A DNA stretch of 64,000 bases, taken from contig QKMZ01000001.1 of NCBI GenBank assembly GCA_003242885.1, forward strand, positions 310,001-374,000, in the 5' to 3' direction. Made by a program: the position numbers and the translations under genes. The notes beneath the pieces are model-generated. The model did no database searches. It saw only the letters and a list, made by a program, of their open reading frames with translations, and had not been told where the DNA came from. How positions within the stretch are numbered: the first letter of the stretch is position 1; the number at the start of each line of letters is the position of its first letter. This DNA comes from Candidatus Melainabacteria bacterium (GTDB lineage: Bacteria > Cyanobacteriota > Vampirovibrionia > Obscuribacterales > Obscuribacteraceae). Positions 1,401-59,802 of the stretch are shown here, in pieces.

Positions 1401-1659
1401 TCGTTTCCTGCTGAATCGAACATTAAACAACTCAGTTGTTGACGTGCATGCGTTGAGCCGGGAGTCCCGCAACAATGCCAGGCATCAGATAGGGCATCCG
1501 CTTTGGGACCAACTGGCTAGGGTTTCCCGCTTTTGACACTTCGTCAAACGAATGTCATACCGCCTTGATACTTTATTGTGGCGAACAGCAGAACAGTGTT
1601 CGCGACCCCCCCCCTTGCAATAAAGCTTTTAGCTCCCCCTCCCCAGGAGCCTATTTACT

Positions 1660-4600
1660 ATGGCCGACGTTTCAACAGTAAATCCTGAAGTAAGCGAAAG
1701 CAGCGAGCGCAACAAGGCAGCGTGTGATGCGCTTCGTAGTGATGCATCACTCGAAAGCCCAGCTGCACCAACGACAGATACTTCGTCCGAACATCTGCCG
1801 GCACTCTCCTTGGAAGACTGCTCCGCTGCTGACCCGATGCTCCAAGCAAAGGCGCTGGCCCTCAAAGAGTATTTGCATCCTGGTCACGTTTTTGGTCTCG
1901 GAATACTCCCAGAAAACGGCATAGAATTCACTGATGTCCAAAACATCTTCAGAAGTATGTCACCCGCTCAAATGCAAGATTTTGAGGCTGCGTACAACAA
2001 TTTGCCCGACACTGATGATCTGAGTACAGAACTGAGCCGGCTCCACGATCCCGTGAAGGAAGCCACAATCCATGCGCTCATGGGACGCACCGAGGGGCAG
2101 ACAAACTGGGGTGGCTACATTTCCGTAGCACTCGAAGCCGCTAATAGCGGTGATCAAAATGGCGGCGGCGAACTAATGCGTGCCATTTTTTCAACAATGG
2201 ACAAAGCTGAAATTGATGCGGCAGGGACACAATGGGCCAACGAGCATGGCGGGCAGACTCTAGAGGATGCCATCAAAGCATCCGGTTTGAGCGAAACAGA
2301 CAAAGGTCTTTATCAATCCATTTATATGGGTGGTGCGGACAATCGTGATACTGCGGTGACTGTTCAAGCCGCAAAAGATTACATCTCGTCGCTTGATAGT
2401 GGCTACCCAAGCGATGTGCCTCGCGCTGAATGGCTGCGCAGATTCGGCGACATTGTTTCGGGTGACTCTGCCGCAACATCGGCTTTGTTGGAAGACCCAA
2501 ATTTCGTTGCTCAATATCATCGTGTTTTTGATGGAACCCCTCTGGCTGAGGGGTATTTGAATGAAGGTCGCATCTCACTTACGGATGTGATTTCTCAAAA
2601 CAGAACAGTAATCGCAAAGTTGATGCAAGGGGAAGCTTCTGAAGACTTTGTTGAATCTGCTCTGAGAAACGCAACTCAGGAAGAACGCGTTGACTTTATC
2701 GCTGGGCGCGCTTTAGTCCAGAGTGGTGCTGAGCTGACCACTACCGAAGATAAGCGCAAGGCTGATTACTATAACAACATGATGAGAACGTTCCAGGAAG
2801 CTGGCGGTACCGAACTGGCTGCTGTCTGGGAAGACGTTTTGACTCACGGTAAAAAGACTCTCGTATCGCAAGTCGCAATGATTGATTCCGATTTCGAGAA
2901 GAGCCAACCTGAGCTCATGCACATGATCGAAACAATGAGTGAGGAAGATTGGAATCTCATTCATTCGGCAGATGGCACTCCTACACCTGAGCTGACTGCG
3001 TTAATTGATACCATCGGCAAAGTTGCTCCGGAGTTCGAAACCGAAGCCGTTGCAAGATTGCGTGAGATGTCCGAAGCCGCAACTTATTCAGATGCAAAAG
3101 CTGGAAATTCTAGCTTCGATGAAATCATTGCTCGCAATTCGGATGCTTTTAGTGCTCCGAATGCAGCTGATGTTCTTGAAGCAGTTAAGAACATGACTGA
3201 TGCGGATCGCCAAAAATATTTTTCGAACGATGAGTACCGAGCATCTGTAGACGCTGTGATTTTCCCGAATCATCAGGTCATGAAATCTTTCATTGATAGC
3301 CCAGTAGCGCAAGCACAAATGCTGATGGCGCAATCGATGCTCGGGCAAATTAAAGAAGACGGTAAGGCTCCAGAGATGGGCGTCGTAGAGAATTTTGCGC
3401 AAAAGGTCATTAATGGCGAAATCAACAGCTCGAATCAACTTGCCACTCTTGAATCAGTAGCAACTGATCCTTCACTTCAACAATTGCTCAAAAACTATTT
3501 GCCGATGTACAACGAGCAAATGATGCCTGCCAATTCGTTCGAAGAGCACCTTGATGGCTATGATGCACGCACCACAAGTTTGACTCAACTGCTCATGAGC
3601 CTCGATCCGGATGGTCATAAAGCAAACTTCGGTGCTTTGGTAAATGGTGGCAAGATTTCTGAAGCAACTCAGATGGTTGGCGATCTGGCCCCAGTCCCTG
3701 GATTTAGCACTCTTGCAGATGAGACTACTAACCGTTTTTCACCAGAAGATCCGAGATTCGAAGTAGCGCAAAATGTTCTCGAGCAAAATGGTAAAGCTGA
3801 GCCGGAAGACATTGCTCAAATGTACTTGCTTGGAATGGACTCGCACGCAAATGGCGGCGAATCTTATAACTACCGTGATGTCCTGACGATGCTTGACGCT
3901 GCGGGGCCAGCGGGGCGCTCACAGTTTTACCAATCCATGAAAGACAAATATCAAGTTGATTTTGTTGAAGCATTCAAGAGCCGCGTTGCCAGCGAGAACT
4001 TGGAAGGCGGATACAAGACAATCTTCGATAACGCAGTTGCACAAGGTTTCAATCTCACAACCGCTGATGAAGTTGCCTTGGCAGCCCTTGATGATCAAGG
4101 TGGATACAGAGAGTTCGAAAGCACCTTGGCTGCAATGTCTTTCGATGAGCGCGATCAGATGAAAGCTGAGTTCGCAGCAAAAGGCTATGGCGACTTTGAT
4201 TCCGAATTCCTCGGACTGATTGGTAGCAACACCGCTGAATTGGAAAAATATGGTGCTTTGATTTCTTCCTTCGAGGAAGATCCTTCTTCCAAATTCATTC
4301 AAAGATTGCTCGAGTCCAAAGATGATCTTTCCGGCTGGGATCTCGATGGCACCAACGAAGAGCTCGTTAGATCTATCTTGACCAATCGCGATGTATTAGC
4401 GAAGTACGCGGCGGCTCGTGAAAGCTTGCCCCCGGAAGTGCTTGCTCAAATCGATCAAATGTATGTCGATGCGGTAAACGATAACCGTACTTCAAAAGAA
4501 AATGTCGCAGCAAAAGTAAATGCAGCGGTTGACAGCATTCTGCTGGTTGCAGCGGTAGCCAGTATGTTTCCATCAGGCGGTACAAGCGCAGTAGCTTTTG

Positions 4601-52028: not shown

Positions 52029-54860
52029 ATGCAAAAGCCGAGACACAATGTTGATTTAGCGAAAACCGCGGAAGAAATTCGGTTGACCACCGGATTGGAC
52101 GAACCTACGCAGCAAGAAATTATTGTGTCCGCAAAAGCCGAGCAGACTACCAGGCAGGAGTTTCGTGTCAGTACTCAAACCGACATGGAAGCAGGTTTGG
52201 AGAGCGGTTACAGCTCTGACCGCATGTTTGATTCGCTTATCGATACTCAGACCGGTACATCAACCCAAACCGAATCACATAACGATACCCAATCAGACAC
52301 TCGTCATAAAACGGCGTCTGGCGAATTGTCCTCTCTTGAAAAACACCACGACCCTGACGGGACTATGGGTTGCAATACCTGCCAAGGTGATCTGATAGAG
52401 GCGATTGCCGATGAATGTCGAATAAATGTAGGCGACGTAATCGCATCTCGCTATGAGATAAAGCAGTATCTGGGCGAGGGTGGCATGAGTGCCGTCTATG
52501 CGGCCACCGATAAGGTTATTAAGCGCGATGTGGCGCTAAAGATTTTGCATCGCGATTTGTTGGTTCGCGGTAAGGGCTCTTTGCTGAGGTTTCAGCGTGA
52601 AGCGCAAGCGCTTGGAAATTTAGACCATCCGAACATAGTAAAGATCCATCATTTCGACGCTGACGAGAATGCGCAGCCGTACATAGTTATGGATATCGTC
52701 AATGGCGAGTCCTTAGCACGACGTCTGGTGAAAGAGCCAGAAGCTGGAAAAATTACCGATATCATCGACATCTTTGTGCAAGTTTGCGACGCGCTGGCTC
52801 ATGCGCATAATCGAGGTGTTGTACACCGAGATCTAAAGCCGAGCAATATTATGGTCGTCGGTAATCAAGTCAAAGTCCTCGACTTCGGCATCGCGAAGTT
52901 GATGAGCGAAGACAGCGACCAAGAATTGCAACTCACTCGCACCGGCGAGGTATTTGGAAGCCCGCTCTATATGAGCCCCGAGCAGTGTCGTGGTTTAAAG
53001 CTGGATTTCCGCTCGGACATCTATTCAATCGGCTGCGTCATGTATGAAGCCTTTACCGGAAATCCTCCATTCACCGGAAACTCGCACATCGACACCATGC
53101 TTAAGCATGTAAATGATTTGCCTGCTTCGGTTGTGTCTTCTATGTGTGACGCGCGCTATGCAGAAAAGGTTGATGCTATCTTGCTTCGATGCATGGCGAA
53201 GAATCCTAACGCTCGCTTCCAGTCTATGGAAGAGGTTAAGGATGCTCTGCTTGAACTCGAACGTGATACTAAAGGTCCGCTAGAACAACTAAAACGAAAA
53301 CTCGAGCTAATAAGACTGAGGATTGGCGCTCAGGGTAAGTTCACGAAGAAGATGATAGCTGCCTACTGCGCTGCAGGTTTGGTTGTTTCTGGGCTTGGCG
53401 CGGTGGCTGTAATTCAACACAACAATTCTGAGCAACATTATTCATTTAAGAACGCTAGCATCGAACAGTGGAAAGAACTAAACGAACAAGGCCAAGCTGA
53501 TTTTAACAACGGAAGATTCGCGAAAGCCGAGGCCATTTTCAAAGGCGAATCAGAGATGGCTCAGAAGCTTGGAAATAAGCAACTCAAACTGGCAAGCTAT
53601 ACCGAATTGCTCGACGTAATGAAAGCTCAGGAGGTCCTCAACCCGGAGTTAACTAAGGACGAAAAATTTCAAAAGCAGAAGCAAAAGATTTCATCCGACA
53701 TAAGTGTTTTAGATAAGGATGAGAATGCCGAGCTAGCGAAATTGAAGAGAGAGCTTTTAGGGACGATGGCACCTGCTCAAAGAGAAGCGCTGTGCGATCA
53801 AGCTGCGGACTTTGGTTTGGCGTTAAGTGATCGTGGTCGCCATAAAGAAGGTATTGATCTTTTACAGCATGCCTTGCGAGTTGCTCAAAAAACCAAGAAT
53901 GAGATTTTGCTTGGCAAACTGCATTGCAATCTAGGTCGCGCTTATTCCAATGATCGCAACATCAAGGACGCTCGGGTTCACTTCGCTGAATCCTTGAAAC
54001 TGCGCGAAAAAGTATTGCCTGGTACTGACGTTGATATTGCCAGGACTGCTGCCGGTTTGGCTGGTGTTTCACCACCGCAAGACGTAGCTCGATTGTTGGA
54101 CCAAGTTCGAAAAGTTTGCGCTGCATCATTTAGTCAAAATAGTCACCAAGTTGGTTGGGCTGATTCGTTGCTTTCCAGGCACGCATACGAGATAAAGGAT
54201 TACACTTCTGCGAAGCAAAAGGCAGATTCTGCAGTATCCAAATGCAAGGCGGCGATTGAAACACAGCTCTCGGTTGAAGAGCAAAACCGCGCCAAGCTAA
54301 CGCTTGTCAGAGCACTTTCTTATCGTGCAATGGCCAATAGGGAATTGCTGGACGCGGAATTGAAAAAAGGTGGAAAGGTTGTAGACAAAGATGCAAGGGA
54401 GGCTGCAATATCAGCCGATTATGCGGAGGCTCTGCAATATGTGCAAGAATTGAATCCGAAGCCGAACGCGCGTGAAGTCGATACAAATACTGCGTGGCTG
54501 CTGACAGAAGATGCTATTGCGCTGAAGAAGCATTACGACTTTGCGATGTCCAAGGGAGACAGTTTGCCAAACGACGATTCTGGCAAACCCGCCTTACTCA
54601 ACCAAGCCAAATTCCGGGTGGCTCGTGCACTCGCTATAAATGATAGATTGCCCTCGGCGGAGGCGAAAGTCAAAGCTGCGGATTATTACTTGTGGTTGGC
54701 ACGCATTGAGCGCTCTCTCTCGGATCTTCCTGCCTCAGAGCGAGCATATCGCTTGGCGAAACAAAACAGCGATGCTGCTAACGGTGTGAGCAGCGCACTC
54801 AGCGGACTAATTCAACAAGAATTGGACGCAGTTAGCAGAGATTTGGGAAAAGATAATTGA
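52029..54860 (+). CDS. PknB-type Ser/Thr protein kinase with TM and TPR sensor region
   Basis: A 943-aa receptor-like kinase. The N-terminal ~110 residues are polar Thr/Gln-rich linker. The kinase domain (~140-410) has glycine loop 'LGEGGMSAVY', Lys in 'DVALKIL', catalytic 'HRDLKPSNIM' (~264), 'DFG' (~284) and the APE-like 'GSPLYMSPEQ'. A TM helix at ~440-460 ('MIAAYCAAGLVVSGLGAVAVI') separates it from an extracytoplasmic TPR region ('GRFAKAEAIFKGE', 'LLGKLHCNLGRAYSND'). This resembles TPR-sensor kinases of large-genome bacteria. No phosphatase is adjacent. ATG start; weak Shine-Dalgarno. Confidence 0.92.
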   Translation: MQKPRHNVDLAKTAEEIRLTTGLDEPTQQEIIVSAKAEQTTRQEFRVSTQTDMEAGLESGYSSDRMFDSLIDTQTGTSTQTESHNDTQSDTRHKTASGELSSLEKHHDPDGTMGCNTCQGDLIEAIADECRINVGDVIASRYEIKQYLGEGGMSAVYAATDKVIKRDVALKILHRDLLVRGKGSLLRFQREAQALGNLDHPNIVKIHHFDADENAQPYIVMDIVNGESLARRLVKEPEAGKITDIIDIFVQVCDALAHAHNRGVVHRDLKPSNIMVVGNQVKVLDFGIAKLMSEDSDQELQLTRTGEVFGSPLYMSPEQCRGLKLDFRSDIYSIGCVMYEAFTGNPPFTGNSHIDTMLKHVNDLPASVVSSMCDARYAEKVDAILLRCMAKNPNARFQSMEEVKDALLELERDTKGPLEQLKRKLELIRLRIGAQGKFTKKMIAAYCAAGLVVSGLGAVAVIQHNNSEQHYSFKNASIEQWKELNEQGQADFNNGRFAKAEAIFKGESEMAQKLGNKQLKLASYTELLDVMKAQEVLNPELTKDEKFQKQKQKISSDISVLDKDENAELAKLKRELLGTMAPAQREALCDQAADFGLALSDRGRHKEGIDLLQHALRVAQKTKNEILLGKLHCNLGRAYSNDRNIKDARVHFAESLKLREKVLPGTDVDIARTAAGLAGVSPPQDVARLLDQVRKVCAASFSQNSHQVGWADSLLSRHAYEIKDYTSAKQKADSAVSKCKAAIETQLSVEEQNRAKLTLVRALSYRAMANRELLDAELKKGGKVVDKDAREAAISADYAEALQYVQELNPKPNAREVDTNTAWLLTEDAIALKKHYDFAMSKGDSLPNDDSGKPALLNQAKFRVARALAINDRLPSAEAKVKAADYYLWLARIERSLSDLPASERAYRLAKQNSDAANGVSSALSGLIQQELDAVSRDLGKDN

Positions 54861-56846: not shown

Positions 56847-57281
56847 TTAGTGGTCTAATCCAAAACCATTTGCAATGCCAAACAATCCGCGAATCTTATT
56901 GAGTTTCATCTTCGCGCGTTGTTCTGGCGTAAGAATCTTCGCGAAAGCGATTAGATGCTCAACGAGAACGTCTGTTAGCTCTGATTTCTTGCCGCGGATT
57001 TCATCGGTGATGTTCCAAACCTGCTTTTCGTCAATTGCTGGCTTAGCCAACTCTTTGAAGAGTCGCTTATATAGATCGACGATATCGACTTTTCCGTGGC
57101 CGAACTTACTAAAGGCTTGTCCCTTGAGTTCTGCGAGTTTTTCCAATTGATCGTCTGTCAGATCAATACCGGAGAAAGGCGAGCCACAACCGTGACCGCC
57201 AAACGGCCCATGCATTCCGCCGTGCATTCCGGCAAACTTGCCAAACATGCCCTGGGGACCACAATTTCCAAATCCGAACAT
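56847..57281 (-). CDS. Spy/CpxP/ZraP-like protein with Gly/His/Met-rich N terminus
   Basis: A 144-aa helical protein. The N-terminal ~38 residues are 'MFGFGNCGPQGMFGKFAGMH...' with repeated GMHG and GHGCG, giving five or so His/Cys in a short glycine-rich tail that could bind metal. The rest is a helical hairpin with the Spy/CpxP-type 'LTDDQLEKLAELKGQAF' and 'ILTPEQRAKMKLNKIRG' (LTxxQ). Spy-family proteins are envelope chaperones and ZraP binds zinc, but no signal peptide is present here, so it is probably cytoplasmic. It is divergent from a TetR-family gene that shares the His-rich character, with an inverted repeat between them. Confidence 0.78.
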   Translation of the reverse strand: MFGFGNCGPQGMFGKFAGMHGGMHGPFGGHGCGSPFSGIDLTDDQLEKLAELKGQAFSKFGHGKVDIVDLYKRLFKELAKPAIDEKQVWNITDEIRGKKSELTDVLVEHLIAFAKILTPEQRAKMKLNKIRGLFGIANGFGLDH

Positions 57282-57344
57282 AAAACCTCCTATCGTCAGG
57301 GCGAAAAGCCCTGCCGCTCGTATAATTTGAAGGAATATCCAAAA

Positions 57345-57376
57345 ACTGACTATCAGTATAAAATTATACCGTCAGT
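57345..57376. promoter_or_regulatory. Inverted-repeat operator between Spy-like and TetR genes
   Basis: GTATAA-AA-TTATAC forms the core, flanked by ACTGAC on the left and GTCAGT on the right. This imperfect dyad lies just upstream of the TetR start, in the shared divergent region, where TetR autoregulation is typical. TATAAT occurs at 57321. Confidence 0.65.
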
Positions 57377-57381
57377 CGGTT

Positions 57382-58032
57382 TTGTGTCAAGGCGATCAAA
57401 AATTGGGACGACGAGAAGAAAAACGAGAAGCAACCAGGCAGGAAATACTGACTGCGGCGAGGTCCATGTTCCAGCAGAAGGGGTATGACGCGACGTCGGT
57501 CGATGACCTCGTGCTGGCTGCGAATGTAGCCAAGGGGACGTTTTACTATCATTTCAACTCGAAGGATGAGCTACTGCATGCTTTGCAGGAGATGGTCATT
57601 GATGAGTTTGCCACCCAAGCGCGCACAAAGTTGACTGAGGGGGTCTCTCCATTAAAGGTACTGTCAGAGTTCGTCTCTGAAATGGCTAAATGGAACGAAG
57701 CTAACTCAGACCTGTCACGCGCTGTATTTGCAGAGAAGTTCACGCGCTTTTCGCAGGGGCATGGTGGACACGGCAGCCATGCCAGCCACGGTAATCATTG
57801 CTCTGTAGAAGAGAAGAAGCGGAAATTCGTTAATTTAATTGCGGAGCTGATCGCGCTTGCGCAGAAGGCAGGCGAGATCCGAGCAGATGTAGAAGCTGAT
57901 GATTTGGTTCGTGTGATCTTGCCGCCAATTATGTTTACGACTGCAACCTGGTTGTTCAATCCTGAAGGCTCGCTGTCAGAGCGCCTAGAACGCAGTCTCA
58001 AGCTTGTTTTGGAAGGCGTCCGTCCTCAGTAA
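57382..58032 (+). CDS. TetR-family regulator with His-rich insert
   Basis: A 216-aa TetR-type repressor. The N-terminal DNA-binding domain reads 'TRQEILTAARSMFQQKGYDA' and 'VAKGTFYYHFNSKDELLHAL'. The ligand domain contains the insert 'GHGGHGSHASHGNHC' (~133-147), five His and one Cys between helices, which looks like a metal-sensing loop. The track's TTG start at 57382 can be replaced by TTG 57403 (LGRREEKREA). An inverted repeat at 57345-57376 is the likely operator for it and for the divergent Spy-like gene. Metal sensing is inferred, not shown. Confidence 0.88.
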   Translation: MCQGDQKLGRREEKREATRQEILTAARSMFQQKGYDATSVDDLVLAANVAKGTFYYHFNSKDELLHALQEMVIDEFATQARTKLTEGVSPLKVLSEFVSEMAKWNEANSDLSRAVFAEKFTRFSQGHGGHGSHASHGNHCSVEEKKRKFVNLIAELIALAQKAGEIRADVEADDLVRVILPPIMFTTATWLFNPEGSLSERLERSLKLVLEGVRPQ

Positions 58033-58771: not shown

Positions 58772-58995
58772 TTATTGAATCAACGGAATTTTCTTTATTT
58801 GAAACAGTTGCGCTCACATTGCGCCTATATATTGTTGGGTTTGTCACTGAGCGTTGCTCCTTGTGACCGAGAACGTCTGCTTGGGTGGACTCTTCAAAAA
58901 AGTTTCGAACTTAAGGAAAAACTCAGCGGAAAAATTGAACTCTTTTCCTCTTGGTTTCGTCTTTAAAGTTAGAAGCAACTTTTGGGAGAGTTTTT

Positions 58996-59802
58996 ATGAA
59001 TAAGGTGACCTTGATGAGCTTTTCGCTCGCTCTTATCACCGGCTCAATAGTCGGCATTTTGCAACCCGCTGAAGCAAAGAATTGGGGCACGGGAGTAAAT
59101 GGAAGGCAAGCAAGGCAACACTCGCGCATCAATAATGGAATCGGCAACGGTTCTCTGACTGGTCGCGAAGCGCGCCGCTTGAATATGCAACAAAGAGCTT
59201 TGAACAAGCAGGAGCAGTTCTATCGTTCCACTGGCGGCGGTCTCAACAACTGGGAGCGCAACAAGCTACAACGAGAGCAAAATCAGCTAAGCCACAATAT
59301 CTACAATCAAAAGCATGATGGACAAGATAGAAATCCTGGTCCCGGCAATGGCTGGGGCAACCCTCCAGGTCATGGTATCGGCAACCCACCCGGAACAAGT
59401 TGGGGCAATCCTCCTGGACGCGGTCCCTGGAATCCACCCGGCACCAACTGGGGCAATCCGCCAGGGCATGGACCAGGCAATCCTCCCGGCACTAGCTGGG
59501 GCAATCCGCCCGGAGTTGGTCCGTACAATCCACCTGGTACCAACTGGGGCAATTACAGGGGCGTGAATGCACGTCAGGAAAATCAGCAAGAGCGATTAAC
59601 CAACGGATTGCAAAACGGCTCGCTCACACAAAAAGAATATGATCGCTTGCAAAAGCAGCAGAATAGCCTCGCCAACTTGGAAGCGAAATATCGTGATTCC
59701 GGCAACGGACTCAATCCATATGAAAGAGCGCGTTTAGATGCCGCGCAAGATTCCCTCAGTCGCAACATCAACCGACAAGCGCACGACGGTCAGCACAATT
59801 AG
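58996..59802 (+). CDS. Secreted protein with WGNPPG repeats between two related helical domains
   Basis: A 268-aa protein from ATG 58996 (GGGAGAG upstream), preceded in the track by 15 unsupported codons. A signal peptide ('FSLALITGSIVGILQPAEA') is followed by a helical unit 'RINNGIGNGSLTGREARRLN...QLSHNIYNQKHDGQ'. About 65 residues of Gly/Pro/Asn/Trp repeat (WGNPPGHGIGNPPG...) follow, then a second copy of the helical unit ('RLTNGLQNGSLTQKEYDRLQ...SLSRNINRQAHDGQ'). The helical unit resembles short repeats of unknown function in exported bacterial proteins. Likely extracellular or surface; function unknown. Confidence 0.75.
   Translation: MNKVTLMSFSLALITGSIVGILQPAEAKNWGTGVNGRQARQHSRINNGIGNGSLTGREARRLNMQQRALNKQEQFYRSTGGGLNNWERNKLQREQNQLSHNIYNQKHDGQDRNPGPGNGWGNPPGHGIGNPPGTSWGNPPGRGPWNPPGTNWGNPPGHGPGNPPGTSWGNPPGVGPYNPPGTNWGNYRGVNARQENQQERLTNGLQNGSLTQKEYDRLQKQQNSLANLEAKYRDSGNGLNPYERARLDAAQDSLSRNINRQAHDGQHN
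59353..59553 (+). repeat. WGNPPG-type coding repeats
   Basis: Seven or eight imperfect units of about 24 bp (TGGGGCAAYCCNCCNGG...), in frame, give the Pro/Gly linker. Antisense ORFs over it are shadows. Confidence 0.85.

Follow-up and report, generated by a model that had tools for sequence, protein, structure and literature searches.

A gene for a short Spy/CpxP/ZraP-fold protein without a signal peptide and a tetR-family gene stand back to back in a Candidatus Melainabacteria genome (G000; 6.73 Mb, 17 contigs), and a 42-bp dyad between them overlaps the spy-like promoter. The pair, its orientation and this candidate operator are conserved in seven genomes from four genera of Candidatus Obscuribacterales/Melainabacteria. 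From these features we have high confidence in an architecture of repressor, operator and target, and we give roughly even chances to the fuller proposal that the TetR protein represses its own gene and that of a cytosolic Spy-like protein until a transition metal or thiol stress acts as inducer. Repression, the identity of the inducer and a chaperone or buffering activity of the product are what we infer from this anatomy.

The gene pair and its intergenic region

The window, by which we mean the whole 64-kb stretch of DNA analyzed (G000:C9:310001-374000), carries the two genes on opposite strands with a 121-bp gap between them (Table 1). Such a divergent Spy-like/TetR pair had been claimed by the initial annotation, and both reading frames were found at the positions it gave, each passing its Pfam cut-offs: Metal_resist PF13801 (33.4 bits, cut-off 29.2) and LTXXQ PF07813 (25.3 bits, cut-off 24.3) for the Spy-like protein, and TetR_N helix-turn-helix (69.8 bits, cut-off 24) and the "SbtR-like" TetR_C_43 (39.5 bits, cut-off 27) for the TetR protein. 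The genes adjoining the pair include no recognizable metal transporter or other metal gene, which weighs against metal sensing; no lipid gene was recognized as paired with it, and no sensor kinase/response regulator pair was seen beside it within the window. A tblastn search of plasmids with the Spy-like protein returned zero matches, and a literature search did not find a TetR/LTXXQ pair described. Elsewhere in the window, one reading frame encodes a protein whose N-terminus is signal-like and which contains WGNPPGxGxxNPPGT-type repeats in tandem, and a large one appears, by eye, to encode a Ser/Thr protein kinase that continues into a long, repeat-like region at its C-terminal side.

Table 1. 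Coordinates of the features discussed (window positions unless a locus is named)
Feature	Position	Strand	Remark
Spy/CpxP/ZraP-fold (LTXXQ, Metal_resist) protein	56847..57281	-	144 aa, no signal peptide
Shine-Dalgarno AGGAGG of spy-like	57286..57291	-	4 nt before ATG 57281
Hairpin in spy-like 5' UTR	57294..57316	-	
Near-invariant GTATAATTT block	57320..57328		possible tetR -10 on +, or part of spy leader on -
Candidate operator, 42 bp	57342..57383		arms 57342-57361 and 57364-57383 (20 nt each, 80% complementary), 2-nt center
Smaller dyads, one in each arm	57345-57357; 57368-57380		ACTGACTATCAGT; ACCGTCAGTCGGT
Sigma70 promoter of spy-like	57363..57390	-	TTGACA 57390-57385, 16 nt, TATAAT 57368-57363; 12/12
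TetR-family repressor (predicted)	57403..58032	+	209 aa from TTG 57403; longest ORF from TTG 57382
His/Cys segment GHGGHGSHASHGNHC	57757..57801	+	residues 119-133, 5 His and 1 Cys; alpha6-alpha7 loop
Repeat protein with signal-like N-terminus	58951-59802	+	
Kinase/repeat reading frame	52029-54860	+	by eye
Exported Spy/TetR pairs	L003 (G000:C13:146455-147946), L028, L084, L085		TetR clade without His tract
Signal-peptide-less Spy/MarR-type pair, G037	L049:1396-1953; L049:2015-2818	-; +	
Globin-like gene and short spy-like gene, G040	L042:805-1359 and 1486-1968		same strand
Junction of FAD and HAD genes, G004	L069 (G004:C120) ~1442-1517		

The AlphaFold2 model of the Spy-like protein is a helical hairpin preceded by a disordered N-terminus (residues 1-32), and its best PDB matches are CpxP, ZraP (3lay), Spy and CnrX, with a Foldseek probability of ~1 and weak E-values (0.008-0.2); a PDB search by sequence gave chance matches only. 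Residues 1-32 are also the Met/His/Gly/Cys-rich segment that had been described as a GMHG/GHGCG tail; the segment itself is real, and it lies at the N-terminus, not in a C-terminal tail. C7 of an MFGxxxC motif in this segment is aligned in register in six of the seven orthologues; in the remaining one (G008), the Cys stands a few residues later. The translation start can be regarded as fixed, since the Shine-Dalgarno/ATG arrangement is conserved in the orthologues and no in-frame ATG, GTG or TTG lies upstream within the leader.

From this start, the protein lacks the Sec signal peptide of periplasmic Spy/CpxP/ZraP proteins: a hydrophobic core is missing from its N-terminus (the 13-residue Kyte-Doolittle mean peaks at 0.35, against 0.1-1.0 in other members of the short class and 1.8-2.6 in five exported paralogues), and the protein is predicted to be cytosolic. 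A signal peptide hidden upstream was considered and rejected; the codons there read as hydrophobic in the window's genus and not in other genera, and because they contain no in-frame start, this reading does not amount to a signal peptide. We also looked for a cytosolic Spy beyond the host's family, but the homologues recovered from 17 distant genomes of the phylum all begin with export-type sequences, and neither a TetR nor a MarR gene adjoins them within the fetched flanks. The cytosolic form thus looks derived within the host's family.

On the other side of the gap, TTG 57403 is the most likely start of the TetR protein: the sequence that is conserved between genera begins there, at (M)GRRE. 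The initial annotation had placed an inverted repeat between the genes, and this proved to be the larger 42-bp dyad, which none of 2,000 dinucleotide shuffles of the 121-bp gap equaled and whose degenerate pattern matches once in 64 kb (0 expected). A smaller dyad is nested in each arm, which would allow two dimers to bind. As is typical of TetR-family regulation, this predicted palindromic operator lies in the adjacent promoter region, where it spans the -35/-10 region of spy-like; the intergenic alignment retains a footprint of the form AAAACYGACTRWCRGTATAA / AA / TTATACCGTCAGTCGGTTTT-like, together with the overlapping promoter, across four genera. In a half-site search of nine genomes, the window's own genome had two opposed copies at this locus alone. 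A wider regulon was accordingly discarded, as the half-site with up to one mismatch matches nowhere else in the 6.7-Mb genome, which points to a local switch.

The spy-like leader carries a near-invariant AAAUUAUAC followed by a hairpin just upstream of the Shine-Dalgarno sequence; this hairpin folds in all seven orthologous leaders (including L008-L013), and its arm sequences differ between genera. No Rfam family matched the leader at E<=1, and a known riboswitch was therefore rejected, as was a recurrent leader motif, ATTATAC-(18-36)-RGGAGGT, which found just this locus and one other match, of unlike sequence, in the genome, about the frequency of the control pattern.

Conservation of the pair and other Spy/regulator pairings

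Adjacent and divergent tetR and short spy-like genes occur in G000, G002, G003 and G005, which represent the window's genus, and in G008, G014 and G032, which represent three other genera. The genes beside the pair, for a FAD oxidoreductase and a HAD-type phosphatase, are common to the window's genus only and are not shared by the latter three genomes; since these neighbors change beyond the genus, the pair and its operator form the conserved unit. Conserved pairing, footprint, overlapping promoter and single genomic site together give good support to the earlier proposal of a repressor/Spy-like pair with a shared, predicted operator. In the congeneric G004, these two flanking genes (FAD and HAD) adjoin with only one half-site-like sequence between them, and the pair has probably been lost; four other genomes of the genus gave zero matches at orthologue level, indicating that the module is dispensable. 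Beyond the order, TetR relatives (27-33% identity) lack both a Spy neighbor and a His loop.

Related pairings were found with exported members of the family. Exported Spy paralogues are divergent to TetR genes in G001, G002, G005 and the window's own genome, which thus holds a second Spy/TetR pair (on C13) with a TetR of a different clade, and are divergent to MarR genes at L116, L122, L130, L131 and others; none of these TetR or MarR partners has a His-rich segment. The TetRs of exported and cytosolic Spy proteins fall into two separate clades (100/99 and 99/94, respectively), with the TetR partners of cytosolic Spy in the latter, and given this separation, the Spy/TetR pairings either arose separately or are old.

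A parallel involving another regulator family was observed in G037, where a signal-peptide-less Spy and a MarR-type regulator, whose long N-terminus is rich in His (GEHGHGEHGHG-type), are encoded divergently; in the congener G043 (L047), the His-rich MarR is reduced to a fragment. Further short Spy-like proteins (L041, L042, L044 and L046) have no TetR or MarR gene within the fetched flanks, and the Spy/regulator pairing is therefore frequent and not universal. At L042 (G040), the short spy-like gene lies downstream of a gene that by eye is globin-like, on the same strand.

The Cys/His loop of the TetR protein and its possible inducers

The AlphaFold2 model of the TetR protein (pLDDT 85) has nine main helices in the TetR fold and gives 477 PDB matches at E<=0.001. 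Residues 120-139 form a disordered loop between alpha6 (102-119) and alpha7 (140-155) in an otherwise confident model, and this loop corresponds to the TetR insert of the initial annotation. The segment GHGGHGSHASHGNHC is indeed present; its His content varies among the eight orthologous TetRs (5, 3, 3, 2, 2, 2, 0 and 0, the last two in G014 and G027), a set that includes G027, whose TetR sits at a contig end with its neighbor unseen. One Cys (C133) is found in all eight and is the sole invariant loop residue. The annotation had named absence of the insert from orthologues as evidence that would count against it, and the outcome is divided: the loop is kept, and the His tract is lost in two of the eight. 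At least two His together with the Cys occur in 6/8 paired TetRs and in 0/23 other TetRs of the host's family (Fisher P = 3.8e-5, indicative only, being uncorrected for phylogeny), some of which have longer loops. The G014 orthologue (L012 / L142), with its Cys and no His, also has an early stop near the C-terminus and is possibly decaying.

The place of this loop can be compared with TetR proper, where His100 is a ligand of the Mg in the Mg-tetracycline complex and induction rearranges residues His100-Thr103 together with the alpha6/alpha7 loop (PMC8326586). Since TetR induction uses this element, a metal- or thiol-reactive segment here could couple to DNA release. As both partners carry metal-type Cys/His segments, the pair has the look of a small module for metal or thiol stress, and a "metal-sensing" TetR is plausible. 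The loop need not be a metal site, because two orthologues have no His in it and several unpaired TetRs of the host's family have a Cys at about the C133 position.

We therefore propose, conditionally, a two-gene, autoregulated, one-component stress switch. The TetR protein would bind the 42-bp double dyad over the -35/-10 region of spy-like, repressing that gene and probably also its own. A transition metal (of the Cu, Zn, Ni, Co or Cd class) or thiol-reactive stress would act on C133 and the neighboring His residues, and this reaction in the alpha6-alpha7 loop would release the repressor; the cytosolic Spy/ZraP-fold product might then buffer metal through its disordered Met/His/Cys/Gly N-terminus, protect cytosolic proteins, or do both. 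Metal or thiol responsiveness through the TetR loop is the single best account of the data, and we give it roughly even odds.

A purely thiol-based, redox or electrophile sensor, in which DNA is released once C133 forms a disulfide or is alkylated, the His residues are an ornament peculiar to the lineage and the Spy-like protein guards cytosolic proteins from oxidative unfolding, would fit the invariance of C133, the His-free loops of G014 and G027 and the Cys of unpaired TetRs. In Thermus SbtR, from the matched C-terminal-domain family, a Cys at another position links the subunits through a disulfide (PMC4948773). Such a sensor leaves aside the two to five His beside the Cys in most paired TetRs and in none of the 23 others, the His/Met/Cys-rich Spy N-terminus and the comparable case of another cytosolic Spy with a His-rich MarR as its neighbor, and we consider it rather unlikely. 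These matching His/Met/Cys contents on both partners, with the MarR parallel, place metal somewhat ahead of thiol as the inducer.

The closest folds of the TetR protein, Thermus FadR with lauroyl-/dodecyl-CoA and Bacillus FadR, and a weak NCBIfam similarity to FadR suggest a lipid pocket and count against the metal/thiol account. FadR-like lipid sensing is thus possible: the pocket would bind an acyl-CoA, xenobiotic or other lipid-like ligand, the loop would be a non-sensing disordered linker, and the Spy-like protein would be induced by membrane or lipid stress. However, this fold similarity is general to the TetR family, no lipid gene pairing was recognized, and both the clade-specific Cys/His loop and the His/Cys-rich Spy N-terminus would be left unexplained, which makes an acyl-CoA or xenobiotic repressor unlikely. 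Neutral low-complexity drift of the His tract in a tolerated, non-sensing loop would accord with the predicted disorder and with the strong variation of loop length (22 against 14-16 residues in the compared segment) and His number even between congeners, but is improbable given the invariant Cys of the paired clade and the lack of such a His/Cys combination in the other family TetRs, longer loops included.

Metal or thiol responsiveness therefore remains our preferred reading, and a broader version of it can be put forward tentatively, as one that we doubt more than we favor: the cytosolic Spy/ZraP branch may be an intracellular metal buffer or metallochaperone set by at least two unrelated one-component families (TetR and MarR), each having acquired a His/Cys-rich metal-sensing segment, in TetR at the alpha6-alpha7 induction loop.

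Relation to known Spy-family and TetR-family systems

The known setting of Spy, CpxP and ZraP is the cell envelope, with two-component systems in control. The parallel drawn earlier with ZraP holds for the fold and fails for the place and the logic: enterobacterial ZraP/ZraSR shares the Spy-superfamily fold, metal-type residues and a proposed regulated stress role, but ZraP is periplasmic and under two-component control, whereas the protein described here has no signal peptide, is predicted to be cytosolic and is paired with a one-component TetR regulator. Spy and CpxP likewise share the helical hairpin and the LTXXQ profile; they are exported, and their usual regulators, Cpx and Bae, are two-component systems. 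The CnrX/NccX metal sensors (PF13801) share the Metal_resist profile and fold, a likeness drawn at the level of profile and model, and CnrX acts with an anti-sigma factor and an ECF sigma factor in a membrane-anchored system.

Among TetR-family regulators, SczA of streptococci responds to Zn and targets the Zn exporter CzcD, a system that, unlike the present one, is not known to have a Spy-like partner. ComR of the E. coli ComR-ComC system is a TetR-family repressor that copper releases from DNA (PMC10141476); its target is an outer-membrane-permeability protein, it reportedly does not control its own gene, and its likeness to the TetR protein here is at the level of the family. SbtR of Thermus shares the TetR_C_43 C-terminal domain and a palindromic site rich in TGAC/GTCA, but its site, TGACTGGCCAGTCA, is a single 14-mer (PMC4948773), as opposed to the double dyad of 42 bp here, and no description of a His loop was seen for SbtR.

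Each kind of component is thus already known, and what appears new is the combination of TetR one-component regulation with a Spy-superfamily stress protein and its move to the cytosol. If true, an export-less Spy branch with a dedicated one-component repressor would extend the Spy family into the cytosol, and the TetR loop would be a natural example of sensing installed at the known induction element of its family. The host group comprises little-known non-photosynthetic relatives of cyanobacteria, and the pair would provide, from this uncultured lineage of the cyanobacterial phylum, a metal- or thiol-responsive switch that is both compact and testable.
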